From: a virus
Length of the DNA: 43,383 nt
Reading direction: 5' to 3' (one strand)
IMG/VR virus record: IMGVR_UViG_3300036900_000048
Location: 1-43,383 of that record
In this document: one piece after another, positions 11,295-43,383 of the stretch
How positions within the stretch are numbered: the first letter of the stretch is position 1
Layout of the letters: every line of letters starts with the position of its first letter
The notes under the pieces: generated by a model
What the model was told of the DNA's origin: nothing
The model's database searches: none
Seen by the model: only the letters and a program-made list of their open reading frames with translations
Program-made: the position numbers and the translations under genes

Positions 11295-11599
11295 TGACGT
11301 GACTCCGTTGTTGACGGAGAATCGCGCCACAACCTGACGAGGTAGTTGACGCTATCTCCCTTGACGCCGGCCTACACAGCCGGCGTTTCTTTTTGTATCT
11401 GTACGCTTCCGTACAGAGAGTGCACCATCACGCCCGCTAGGATCGCCGGTATGGATCAATCGGCGGCCACATCGTGGCTAGTGCTAGACGCTGGTGCTGC
11501 AGGCGCATATGGCGGTGTGATGAAGTGTACGCTCGCATTGTAGGGGACCGCCCGGTTGCCGATTCCTGCTGCTCCGTGAACTGACTGCCTCCCGGCGGT
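11295..11599. other. 305-bp gap in the leftward block
   Basis: No convincing gene is present on either strand. The gap holds a CTCCG/CGGAG hairpin (11303-11319), four TTGACG hexamers on the plus strand (11294, 11311, 11346, 11361), a strong rightward terminator (11364-11394) and a second perfect hairpin TGTACG-CTTC-CGTACA (11400-11415). It may contain a promoter for the helicase genes, but I cannot place one with confidence. Confidence 0.5.
11364..11394 (+). terminator. Rho-independent terminator, rightward
   Basis: ACGCCGGC (11364-11371) and GCCGGCGT (11379-11386) form an 8-bp GC-rich stem with a 7-nt loop, followed by TTCTTTTT. The T-run is only on the plus-strand side, so it stops rightward transcripts, for example read-through from the 6833-9122 cluster that would be antisense to the helicase. 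Confidence 0.8.
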
Positions 11600-18415: not shown

Positions 18416-18718
18416 ATGCAATACACAATGCGCGAACCATGCGACGCATGTCCTTTCCTTCGTGGCACTCCTTTGCAGCGCAGCACAAGCATGCGCAGAC
18501 TGATGGAATTCGCCAGTGGTCAGTTCCCATGTCACAAGGCTTGCAAGGTCGACGAGGAGCAATCGGCATATGTGCCGCGTAATGACAAAACTCCGCACTG
18601 TGCCGGGGCGCTAATTTTCTTGGAGAAGCGCGGCAAGCCGCATCAGATGATGCGTATTTGCGAGCGCATCGGAATGTACGACAGGTCCAAACTGAACATG
18701 GGCGCAGACGTAGTTTAA
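18416..18718 (+). CDS. Cys-rich 100-residue protein (PCDACPF type)
   Basis: The protein has PCDACPFLRGT near the start, FPCHKACKVDEEQ at about residues 37-50, and PHCAGALIFLEKRG in the middle. The spacing of Cys and His (CxxC, C-x-x-x-C, C) suggests a zinc-binding fold. The CxxCPF start with a CHKxC-like second half is a pattern I recognise from phage and plasmid hypothetical proteins. Function unknown. It is the last gene before the two-hairpin element. Confidence 0.65.
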   Translation: MQYTMREPCDACPFLRGTPLQRSTSMRRLMEFASGQFPCHKACKVDEEQSAYVPRNDKTPHCAGALIFLEKRGKPHQMMRICERIGMYDRSKLNMGADVV

Positions 18719-18725
18719 TCGAATT

Positions 18726-18811
18726 CCGCATAGCGCCTCCCCTCGCTGTGCGGCGCAGTCAGCTACGGCGGAACACACGCCTCCCTCGTGTCCGCAATGC
18801 CGCCGTAGCTG
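18726..18811 (+). ncRNA. Two-hairpin RNA element with anti-Shine-Dalgarno CCUCCC loops
   Basis: Hairpin 1: arms 18726-18735 and 18744-18753 (10 bp with one T-G wobble) close the 8-nt loop CCTCCCCT. Hairpin 2: an outer 12-bp stem CAGCTACGGCGG / CCGCCGTAGCTG (18760-18771, 18800-18811) encloses an inner 5-bp stem ACACG/CGTGT with a 7-nt loop CCTCCCT. Both loops are complementary to the core GGAGG of ribosome binding sites. The element lies 37 bp upstream of the next ATG. No T-run follows, so it is not a simple terminator. It may regulate translation in cis or act as a small RNA. Confidence 0.6.
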
Positions 18812-18848
18812 GCGATTTCTAACTAACCAAACTAACCGGAGAAAAGTA

Positions 18849-19577
18849 ATGAGATTCCCAGCAAGTGGTGGTACGGATTTCGAGCCGCTGGCAGAAGGCG
18901 TACACGTCGGTGTGTGTGACATGATCGTCGACTTGGGTGTGCAGCCAGCCCGTGGCATCTACGGCCCTAAGCGTGAAGTGTATTTTCGCTGGCAGGTTCC
19001 CGCCGAGCGCATCACGTACACGAAAGACGGCAAGGAACTGGAAGGCCCGCGTGTCGTCGGTCAGTCCTACACGGCGTCGATGTCGCCCAAGGCCAACCTG
19101 CGCAAGATGATCGAAGCCTGGCGCGGCAAGAAGTTCGCCAGCGACGGCGAGGCTGAGGCGTACGAAATCGAAGTCCTGCTCGGCAAAGCCTGCCAAGTAC
19201 AGGTCGCGCACAGCAAGGACGGCAAGTACGCCAACGTCAGCACGGTCGTCAGCATGCCCAAAGGCATGAAGGCGCCACCCGTAGAGAACGGCACGGTGTT
19301 CTACTCGCAGGAGAACGATTCAACCTACGAACAACTGCCGCCATGGTTGAAGAAAAAGATCGACGAGCAATTGGACCCGATGGCGATCAGTCCGCCAGCA
19401 ACCGGAGTCGGTGCCCGCCCTACATCAAGCGGCTCCGGTGGCCGCGGCGCGAGCACGGCGACTACGAGCCATGGGACGACCCGAATGACTTCCGCTGACG
19501 AGCAGGAAGCGTCGCGGGCGGCCGCGAAAGCTGCGGAGCGTGACGACTTTGAGGATTCGGAAATCCCTTTTAATTAG
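18849..19577 (+). CDS. ssDNA-binding-like protein
   Basis: GGAGAAAAG stands before the ATG. The 242-residue product has an OB-type beta-rich core (residues about 1-150: VYFRWQVPAERITYTKDGKE, then ASMSPKANLRKMIEAWRGKK and CQVQVAHSKDGKYANVSTVV). A Ser/Gly/Thr-rich linker (about 185-212) and a final acidic tail DDFEDSEIPFN follow. That tail resembles the C-terminal acidic tip of bacterial SSB that recruits partners. It probably coats ssDNA in phage replication or recombination and lies upstream of nuclease genes. The OB fold is not certain by eye. Confidence 0.75.
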   Translation: MRFPASGGTDFEPLAEGVHVGVCDMIVDLGVQPARGIYGPKREVYFRWQVPAERITYTKDGKELEGPRVVGQSYTASMSPKANLRKMIEAWRGKKFASDGEAEAYEIEVLLGKACQVQVAHSKDGKYANVSTVVSMPKGMKAPPVENGTVFYSQENDSTYEQLPPWLKKKIDEQLDPMAISPPATGVGARPTSSGSGGRGASTATTSHGTTRMTSADEQEASRAAAKAAERDDFEDSEIPFN

Positions 19578-19582
19578 AACTG

Positions 19583-19591
19583 TGCTATAAT
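19583..19591 (+). promoter_or_regulatory. Extended -10 promoter for the HNH endonuclease
   Basis: TGCTATAAT (TG at 19583-19584, TATAAT at 19586-19591) is an extended -10 box between the stop of the previous gene and the strong ribosome site (AGGAGGT) of the HNH gene. No good -35 is seen, as expected for extended -10 promoters. It would start transcription near 19598, with a leader of about 14 nt. Confidence 0.55.
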
Positions 19592-19611
19592 GGGCGCACA
19601 GGAGGTACGCC

Positions 19612-20055
19612 ATGCACAGTTCCAAAGTCTGTTTCAAGTGCGGGAAACGTAAACCGCTAGAGAAGTTCTACCGTCATTCGAGAATGGGTGACGGTAGACT
19701 TGGCAAGTGCAAGGAATGCACAAAGAATGATGTCAGCGAAAACCGTGGTAAGAAACTCGATTACTACAGGGCATACGATCGTGAACGAGCCAAGATTCCG
19801 GAACGCCGCAAAGCTGCGGCAATTGTTAGTGCGGCATGGCGTCGTGCTGACGCTCGACGATCGGCAGCCCACAACGCTGTCACTCGGGCTGTACGATCCG
19901 GCAAGCTCGTGCGACTTCCTTGCGTCCGGTGCGGACGGAGTGATGCGTTTGCTCATCACGAATGCTACGACCGGAAACTCGATGTCACATGGCTCTGCCA
20001 GCCTTGTCATAAATTACGCCACAAAGAAATGGTGCTAGAGGGAGTCGAACCATAA
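19612..20055 (+). CDS. HNH endonuclease (recombination endonuclease VII-like)
   Basis: The 147-residue protein has two zinc-ribbon-like parts. The N-terminal one has CFKCGKRKPLEKFY and CKECTKND; the C-terminal HNH domain has CVRCGRSDAFAHHECYDRKL and TWLCQPCHKLRHKE (His-His at about residues 115-116, Cys pairs binding zinc). A Lys/Arg-rich helix (about 40-90) joins them. It has its own promoter and a very strong ribosome site, and its codons are AT-richer than its neighbours, which suits a mobile homing endonuclease. It could instead be a junction or packaging nuclease. Confidence 0.85.
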   Translation: MHSSKVCFKCGKRKPLEKFYRHSRMGDGRLGKCKECTKNDVSENRGKKLDYYRAYDRERAKIPERRKAAAIVSAAWRRADARRSAAHNAVTRAVRSGKLVRLPCVRCGRSDAFAHHECYDRKLDVTWLCQPCHKLRHKEMVLEGVEP

Positions 20056-22750: not shown

Positions 22751-23891
22751 TACCTATGCCAAGACCGTCGAGGCATTGGAGGCTGAAGGCTACACGGTCC
22801 ACTGGCCACCTCGCGATACCGACCAGAACGACGAGACCGGCCTGCGTATCTGTCAGGACAACACAGCGGCGATCGCCAGAGCGGATTGCGTGCACATCAT
22901 CTGGAACGGCACGAGTCAGGGCTGTTTGTTCGACCTCGGCGTCGCCTTCGCGCTCGGAAAGAAAATCATCCCGCTTGAGCTTCCGCCGCCCACTGCAGGC
23001 AAGTCGTTCCAGAACATGATACGCGCCGCCGAGATTGCCGCCACCCTCTCTCCATCGGTGGCCTCACCGCAGGCGGTGCAGGTTACGGATGAGATGATTC
23101 GCGCTGGCTGTCGTGGGTTCTACGGCGATCGGTGGAATAACATCTCCGATCTGTCGAAGGAATCAGCCCTTACGTGGATGCGCGATGCACTCACATACGC
23201 CCTCGCCGCACAACCGCAGGCACAGCCGCCGCAGGATTATGTACTGGTGCCGCGTGAGCCGACAGAGGCGATGCTGGTCGCCGCACTGAGAGAATTCGAC
23301 CCGATTGGCGAACTCGTCGGTTGGGATCACGATGAACACCCATCCCGCACTGACATTCGTGGTGCATGGAAGGCAATTCTAGCTGCCGCACCTATTCCGC
23401 TACAGGAGTCCCCTGCACAGTCGCAGGCATGCGAGCCGGTGGCGAAGCCGCTTACGTGGCTACGCACGCTGCACGGTAAGCCTGATTGGGCGGAAGATTG
23501 CATTGGTGACGATCCGTGCGCCGACTACGATGCAGAGGACGGGTACGCGGCAGTGCCCCTCTACACCCACCCACCCGCACCCTCGCCTGCAAGCGCGCAG
23601 CTACCAGCTACGGGGCCGTTCGTGGATCGCATCGTCCGCATATTCCGCGGCAAGCCAACAGACGACACTAGCGCATTGGTATTGCGTGACTACGCACTAG
23701 CCGCAAGTGGCGGCGATTCGGCGGCTTCAAGCCAGCGTGCGCTGGTGGAAGTGTTCCGTAATTTTATTAGCTGCCACGAGAAACTTGGCGTTGACACGGT
23801 TGGGTGCAGCACTGTTGCGATGAGTAAAGCCATGCGTTCACTCGCCGCCTACACCGCCGCGCTCGATGCAGCCGGGAGAGGAGAGGAATGA
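22707..23891 (+). CDS. Nucleoside 2-deoxyribosyltransferase-like fusion protein
   Basis: Residues 1-95 form a Toll/TIR-like fold of the nucleoside deoxyribosyltransferase group (MKTFLICPVRG, then IARADCVHIIWNG, SQGCLFDLGVAFALGKKIIP). The motif FDLG replaces the more usual catalytic Glu context. Residues about 115-160 and 180-235 are two copies of a small phage domain (VTDEMIRAG, then MRDALTYAL; PTEAMLVAAL, then AWKAILAAAP). A VPLYTHPP motif follows at about 285. This is a fusion of a nucleoside- or NAD-related enzyme with domains common in phage hypotheticals. With the radical SAM gene it suggests nucleoside chemistry or host counter-defence, but neither is proved. Confidence 0.7.
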   Translation: MKTFLICPVRGEAADTYAKTVEALEAEGYTVHWPPRDTDQNDETGLRICQDNTAAIARADCVHIIWNGTSQGCLFDLGVAFALGKKIIPLELPPPTAGKSFQNMIRAAEIAATLSPSVASPQAVQVTDEMIRAGCRGFYGDRWNNISDLSKESALTWMRDALTYALAAQPQAQPPQDYVLVPREPTEAMLVAALREFDPIGELVGWDHDEHPSRTDIRGAWKAILAAAPIPLQESPAQSQACEPVAKPLTWLRTLHGKPDWAEDCIGDDPCADYDAEDGYAAVPLYTHPPAPSPASAQLPATGPFVDRIVRIFRGKPTDDTSALVLRDYALAASGGDSAASSQRALVEVFRNFISCHEKLGVDTVGCSTVAMSKAMRSLAAYTAALDAAGRGEE

Positions 23892-24962: not shown

Positions 24963-25033
24963 TGCTTGTATTGCACCGAAATTGCACAGGGGAGGCGATT
25001 GTGGGATGGCGGTGTCTCAGGAGGGGCGACGGG

Positions 25034-42396: not shown

Positions 42397-43344
42397 TCAG
42401 GTCTCCGTCGTGTCAATGAGGACGACCTTCTTTTCCTCCAAGCGCGTGCCGCCGAACATGCCGGACACGTAGACTTGGGTGGCGTACCGCTTGTCGATAC
42501 GCAGGTCGATCTTGGTCTGGATGTCCATCCACTTGCCCAAGTGGACGCCGGACTTGGCCCAATACGGCATGTAGAAGCCGGCGGACGATGCCAGCAATGC
42601 CTGCGCCTGCACCTTGCCCGGATCGACGACGCCAGCGGACGTACCGTTGACTTCCATCGCGCAGAACTCAAAGCCCATGAACGACAGGACCTTGCCGTTG
42701 ACCAGCACGGGCTTGTCGTTGTAGTCCAGGCTGATGGCCTGCGCTTCGTTGAGCAGCGCCTGGTGGCCTTGGGCCGTCAGGATGCCGTACAGTGGGTCCA
42801 TGTCGACGTCGACTTCGCCCTGCCGGAAAATCTGGTTTGCGGCCTTGAGCTTGTCGACGTTCATGCCGGTGTTGGAGCCGCCGCCGCCGGTGTTGGCATT
42901 GACGAGCTGGCTGCCAGAGCCGTAGGTGATGATGGACACCGCGGTCGTGCCGGTGTGGCCGGTGTTGTTGCTGCCGGCGATGCCCTTGATGATCTCGTAG
43001 TCCATCGCGCGGCCCATCGCCATCGCGCCGTTGCGGGCGTAGGGCGACTGCGGGTCGATCAACATGCGAACCCGATCTTCCTGGTCAATGAGGTCGCCCC
43101 AGCCATACGGTTGCGGGTAGACCCAGCGACGGTCCTGCGGGGTCGAAACGAGCGGCGTATCGCCGTGGCGGGTCGTGATGGCAACGGCCTGGACCGCGCC
43201 AACCTGCTCGACTGGGACTGCGGCCTCGCCCTGATGCGTCTGGACGTCGACCTTGGCCTGGAGCTTGGAACCCATCTGCTGCAGCAAAAGCTGCACGTTC
43301 GTCGTGTATTGATTGACGAACGCAGTCGTAATCTGAAACGACAT
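42397..43344 (-). CDS. Major capsid protein
   Basis: The 315-residue product has a helical N-terminus (FVNQYTTNVQLLLQQMGSKL), PVEQVGAVQAVAITTRHGDT, then RRWVYPQPYGWGDLIDQEDR and a C-terminal half with IFRQGEVDVDMDPLYGILTA. The pattern is that of the BPP-1/Bcep-type HK97-fold major capsid protein. GGAGAA precedes the ATG. Its first 88 bases are duplicated at the left end of the window by the contig overlap. Downstream are the cement and tail genes. Confidence 0.9.
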   Translation of the reverse strand: MSFQITTAFVNQYTTNVQLLLQQMGSKLQAKVDVQTHQGEAAVPVEQVGAVQAVAITTRHGDTPLVSTPQDRRWVYPQPYGWGDLIDQEDRVRMLIDPQSPYARNGAMAMGRAMDYEIIKGIAGSNNTGHTGTTAVSIITYGSGSQLVNANTGGGGSNTGMNVDKLKAANQIFRQGEVDVDMDPLYGILTAQGHQALLNEAQAISLDYNDKPVLVNGKVLSFMGFEFCAMEVNGTSAGVVDPGKVQAQALLASSAGFYMPYWAKSGVHLGKWMDIQTKIDLRIDKRYATQVYVSGMFGGTRLEEKKVVLIDTTET

Positions 43345-43383
43345 GGTGCGTTCTCCGAGAGAGATGGAAGGATTGATTTATCC
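43257..43383. repeat. Right copy of 127-bp terminal direct repeat (contig overlap)
   Basis: Identical to bases 1-127. It includes the capsid gene start and the sequence just upstream of it. Together with the left copy this shows the contig closes into a 43,256-bp circle. Confidence 0.95.

Follow-up and report, generated by a model that had tools for sequence, protein, structure and literature searches.

The window, meaning the whole stretch of viral DNA that was analysed, comprises 43,383 bases. A direct repeat of 127 bases was found at its two ends (1-127 and 43257-43383), and the record therefore probably represents a complete genome, either circularised or terminally repeated. The structural genes matched podovirus families, among them a head-tail adaptor family (phrog_332) and a tail family (phrog_376), and by these genes the nearest annotated phages were an unclassified environmental phage, the Stenotrophomonas phages BUCT708 and BUCT709, and Burkholderia phage BcepC6B. 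In the sampled bacterial genomes the best helicase matches were higher in the class of Paraburkholderia (38-42% identity) than in that of Bradyrhizobium (33-37%); the closest relatives of the helicase and portal sequences point to gammaproteobacterial or betaproteobacterial hosts rather than to alphaproteobacterial ones.

A block of plus-strand genes extends from approximately 17.6 to 25 kb and includes genes for a single-stranded DNA-binding protein (SSB), an endonuclease VII-like protein and an exonuclease-like protein. The element studied here lies within this block, between a gene of unassigned function (18416..18718, plus strand; 100 amino acids, phrog_5443, without a Pfam match) and the SSB-like gene (18849..19577, plus strand). 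It consists of two hairpins, HP1 (18726-18753) and HP2 (18758-18813), both on the plus strand. HP1 begins right after the upstream stop codon, which ends 7 nt before it, and 35 nt separate the end of HP2 from the SSB start. The earlier note, in which the second hairpin ended at 18811, had placed the element 37 bp before the SSB gene and a GGAG in that gene's own site; both statements were right, with the ATG at 18849 and the GGAG at 18838-18841.

No sigma70-type promoter was predicted adjoining the element inside the operon; a TTTAAT sequence, read at 18714-18719 and located 6 nt before HP1, is without a convincing -35 region. There was no U-tract after either stem, and the terminator scan listed no terminator-like site at the element. 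An intrinsic terminator was ruled out, HP2 being followed by GAUUUCUAAC instead of a U-tract.

The element is a strongly structured intercistronic RNA

HP1 is formed by arms at 18726-18735 and 18744-18753, which give 10 pairs including one G-U pair, and has an 8-nt loop, CCUCCCCU, at 18736-18743. The outer arms of HP2 (18758-18771 and 18800-18813) give 14 pairs, 12 of which make up a perfect inverted repeat (18760-18771/18800-18811). Within this stem, an asymmetric internal loop of 3/8 nt leads to inner arms of 5 bp (18775-18779/18787-18791) and to a 7-nt loop, CCUCCCU, at 18780-18786. Two consecutive hairpins on the coding strand, as the earlier note had described, were therefore present both by sequence and by fold. 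The outer stems of 10 and 12 bp that it proposed correspond to HP1 and to the perfect repeat of HP2, although the outer stem of HP2 has 14 bp; similarly, each hairpin does carry a C-rich loop, but that of HP2 caps the inner 5-bp stem and not the 12-bp stem.

The tips of the hairpins are CG-CCUCCCCU-CG in HP1 and CG-CCUCCCU-CG in HP2. A common loop motif, CCUCCC(C)U, is thus carried on two unrelated stems, and in both loops it contains the anti-Shine-Dalgarno (SD) core CCUCC, which bears out the suggested complementarity to the ribosome-binding core. The loops were mostly unpaired in the fold ensemble (0.75 and 0.67), and no obvious pseudoknot was seen in the element when it was judged by eye.

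The folding energy of the element was -47.1 kcal/mol (z = -5.8), and none of 200 shuffled sequences was equally stable. Among 5,774 stretches of 90 nt taken from both strands, with 40 shuffles each, the stretch 18721-18810 on the plus strand ranked first by z (-6.6); other strongly structured stretches were 23056-23145 (z = -5.4) and 11311-11400 (z = -5.0), both on the plus strand. In the minimum free energy fold of a longer region, 18700-18870, HP1 was kept, and the end of the upstream gene competed with the outer stem of HP2. Pairs of hairpins that share a loop 6-mer are frequent by chance, at about 1.8 per shuffled genome. Twin hairpins comparable to the element, defined by a shared loop 6-mer, a first stem of 10 bp or more and a second hairpin enclosed by an outer stem of 10 bp or more, occurred in 5 of 2,000 shuffled genomes (0.003 per genome) as against one on the real plus strand. 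These thresholds were set after the element had been seen, which makes the p-value somewhat flattering; the z rank is free of that choice. Chance pairing was ruled out by the z rank, the shuffle stability and the twin-hairpin counts.

The minus strand of the element folded less well than the plus strand (z = -2.7 compared to -5.8). Plus-strand RNA is favoured by these scores and because the imperfect pairs are G-U pairs on the plus RNA and mismatches on the minus strand. A minus-strand RNA with CsrA-like GGA loops was set aside, since folding of that strand was far weaker. The element is a real, unusual, single-copy structured intercistronic RNA of the phage operon.

Two other features of the plus-strand block were recorded. 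At 24988-24997 on the plus strand, directly past the last gene of the block, AGGGGAGGCG is an exact 10-nt complement of the HP1 tip, CGCCTCCCCT; this match could be due to chance. At 19577-19622 on the plus strand, a hairpin with the arms GAACTGTGC and GCACAGTTC encloses a -10-like TATAAT (19586-19591; extended form TGTGCTATAAT) together with the SD sequence AGGAGG (19600-19605) and the ATG (19612) of the endonuclease VII-like gene. In the T4 genes e, soc and 49, the ribosome-binding site is hidden by a hairpin in read-through messages. By analogy with this layout, a promoter inside the hairpin at 19577-19622 would yield a message without the 5' arm.

The SSB gene is preceded by an open leader

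The product of the gene at 18849..19577 (242 amino acids) is predicted by structural modelling to be an OB-fold SSB. An AlphaFold2 model built with 48 relatives gave a usable SSB core (mean pLDDT of 74), for which the best solved structures were the ssDNA-binding protein PrgE (E = 6e-4) and then many bacterial SSBs with weak E-values. The protein has a typical acidic SSB tail, EDSEIPFN, and its relatives end in DIPF or a similar sequence.

From HP2 to the start codon runs an open leader (18814..18848, plus strand) that contains repeats and then the SD sequence. An 8-nt direct repeat, AACTAACC, is present at 18821-18828 and 18830-18837 on the plus strand and nowhere else in the genome, and the leader holds a doubled AACUAACC around the SSB ribosome-binding site. 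The 37 nt before the SSB ATG had a mean unpaired probability of 0.59, which exceeded that of every other start among the 32 checked and placed the region within the top 0.9% of genome positions.

This arrangement resembles the gene 32 operator of T4 and RB69, in which a folded 5' part gives way to a less structured region of over 40 nt with UUAAA repeats and the ribosome-binding site (PMC535899). Here too a folded element is followed by an open, repeat-bearing leader with a ribosome-binding site, and the gene directly downstream encodes a protein with an OB-fold model and an acidic tail. In contrast to the 28-nt pseudoknot and UUAAA sequences of T4, there are two large hairpins and AACUAACC repeats. 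The likeness is one of anatomy, by which autoregulation by the SSB of this phage is suggested.

Related SSB genes carry a different two-hairpin leader

A strict DNA pattern for the element with its two C-rich loops found no homologue in viral and genome collections. Looser patterns gave scattered matches, and among the matches listed and checked none had comparable stems; four that were viewed in detail were coding or repeat sequence. In three relatives of the upstream gene (L146-L148) other sequence lay downstream, with no match to the SSB gene, and no prophage with the same SSB gene was found in the genome collection searched. The SSB relatives in two annotated phages (L143, L144) were without the element.

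A viral scan with four members of the SSB family yielded 80 loci, of which approximately 25 shared a conserved leader, designated R1, made up of a promoter-like TATAGT, a hairpin CGGUC..GACCG, a hairpin GUCC..GGAC and a ribosome-binding site. In a structure-fitted alignment of 26 sequences there were 19 double-sided pair-keeping cells compared to a shuffle mean of 4.6, and the covariation score fell when the partners were slid by up to three columns. Hairpin 1 accounted for most of these cells, with compensatory changes in four of its five pairs; hairpin 2 was weaker on the alignment columns, though local hairpins were present in nearly all loci. The R1 model recovered the leader in a record outside the alignment (L150/MW202545.1, 74.7 bits), and Rfam gave no match in 18 R1 loci. 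The loci at which the model placed the leader, before SSB genes of environmental phages, were L150:1407-1479, L205:530-603, L227:529-603 and about 24 others. On this comparative evidence the R1 leader is a candidate new RNA family.

One-hairpin versions of R1, consisting of hairpin 1, precede several non-SSB genes in those phages; hairpin 1 may therefore serve as a 5' module of general use. In the same phages (L236, L237, L239, L240 and L242) the promoter-like site lies within a dyad, TCTAAC..GTTAGA, before several genes, and this dyad looks like a repressor operator.

The R1 leaders and the element are alike in that two consecutive hairpins stand directly before a gene of the same SSB family. 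In contrast to the element, R1 has small stems, unrelated loops and a promoter-like TATAGT ahead of it; with its filters off, the R1 covariance model gave no match at 18726-18813. R1 supports a cis-acting role of the element by analogy rather than by homology, and the occurrence of such leaders with unrelated loops leans towards that role.

Possible functions of the element

We tentatively favour the reading, held at somewhat less than even confidence, that the element, as an intercistronic structure in the replication-operon mRNA, acts mainly in cis to control the SSB gene. The hairpins would shield the leader from the cistron upstream of it and provide a docking site. SSB present in excess over single-stranded DNA would then bind the open leader, through the AACUAACC repeats and the C/U-rich loops, and the bound protein would block translation of its own message, as T4 gp32 does. 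In favour of cis control, the strongest folding signal in the genome lies directly 5' of the SSB start on the coding strand. Against it, the same CCUCCC(C)U tip on two unrelated stems is not explained by cis control alone, the R1 leader is a different motif, and the annotated SSB relatives mentioned above do without the element. The matching pyrimidine loops are left unexplained by the cis model unless SSB docks on them, and such docking is a guess.

The loops are the starting point of the regulator reading advanced in the earlier note. On this account an RNA of approximately 95 nt, either cut from the operon transcript or part of it, would use its two C-rich loops to kiss GGAGG/GGGAG ribosome-binding sites of the host or the phage and block translation, a possibility that we take seriously while thinking it doubtful. 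Its wider form, in which a phage anti-SD RNA is released from a replication operon, silences host or phage messages and is convergent with the C-loop small RNAs of alphaproteobacteria and Xanthomonas, seems to us rather unlikely. Should the loops act as anti-SD decoys, the targets of this phage RNA would be ribosome-binding sites at large.

The design has precedents. The alpha-r14 RNAs are described as presenting identical loops on stems that differ (PMC10746234), and the element, in which two different stems end in the same tip with CCUCC, shares this design with the alpha-r14/cuckoo RNAs and CcsR1. Pairing of C-rich loops with G-rich start regions has been shown for the Xanthomonas RNA sX13 (PMC3771888), whose C-rich loops repress; as in sX13, RNAIII and HPnc5490, stable stems here expose C-rich loops that are able to pair with such regions, and the loops of the element are mostly open in the ensemble. 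GGGAG or GGAGG sites occur at several plus-strand genes and allow up to 7 pairs with the loops. Neither a promoter nor a terminator was predicted beside the element, which counts against a separate regulator; however, the missing promoter is not fatal, since RNase E releases the CcsR RNAs from a longer transcript that has a small-protein gene at its head.

Other comparisons were less favourable. The top Rfam match of the element was CcsR1 (RF02791), over the full model length, but it scored 16.6 bits against a gathering threshold of 65.3 (E = 0.07-0.11). Since another structured region of this phage, taken as a control, matched sroD at an equal value (E = 0.11), the CcsR1 match is a lead and not a passed test. 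CcsR1 is named for the motif CCUCCUCCC, whereas the loops here are CCUCCCCU and CCUCCCU; it is cotranscribed with a DUF1127 gene, whereas the upstream gene here belongs to phrog_5443. The alpha-r14/cuckoo RNAs have three hairpins, each with CCUCCUCCC, compared to two hairpins with a related but different motif in the element, and sX13 has three stem-loops with 4C/5C loops, in contrast to this intercistronic phage element. The nearest relatives of the helicase and portal are not alphaproteobacterial, and no homologue was found among the matches listed in the viral and genome collections. Targeting of the phage's own SD sequences by the loops was rejected, since the 16S tail was at least as complementary to them; the SD of the SSB gene itself offers 4 pairs only. 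Overall, the regulator reading of the earlier note receives partial support.

Hairpins occupy such intercistronic positions in many operons, and the element may be ordinary punctuation of this kind, which would stabilise or end the upstream message, or form a site of RNase processing or pausing by which the proportion of the upstream genes to SSB is fixed, the loops being incidental. The position of the hairpins, which start just past the upstream stop and finish before the SSB leader, is as such a role would have it, and the recurrence of R1 hairpin 1 before several different genes fits a generic 5'-end module. Nevertheless, we consider punctuation unlikely: there is no U-tract after either stem, and identical tips on different stems, comparable to those found in so few of the shuffled genomes, would be unexpected if the loops were incidental.

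It is highly improbable that the element acts as single-stranded DNA, as an origin or primase site, and not as RNA: as DNA the strand likewise gives a good fold (z = -5.2) and stands beside an SSB gene, and a local low of the cumulative GC skew near 17-18 kb makes an origin nearby possible, but the imperfect pairs and the weaker minus strand argue for RNA, and no known origin features were recognised beside the element. For STAXI (RF01728), a tandem motif that lies near SSB genes, a role as DNA has been considered (PMC2864571). The element resembles STAXI in having tandem structured repeats near such a gene; STAXI differs in that a pseudoknot with UUCG loops is repeated in it and that it belongs to Enterobacteriales, and no Rfam match to it was found here up to an E-value of 10.

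With cis control of the SSB gene preferred, the element is best regarded as a further form of post-transcriptional control of kinds already known, and not as a new kind. A description from 2010 stated that T4 gene 32 might still be the sole viral example of a pseudoknot used to autoregulate translation (PMC3014915). Structured leaders in a second SSB family would point to repeated use of RNA control on the SSB gene among phages.
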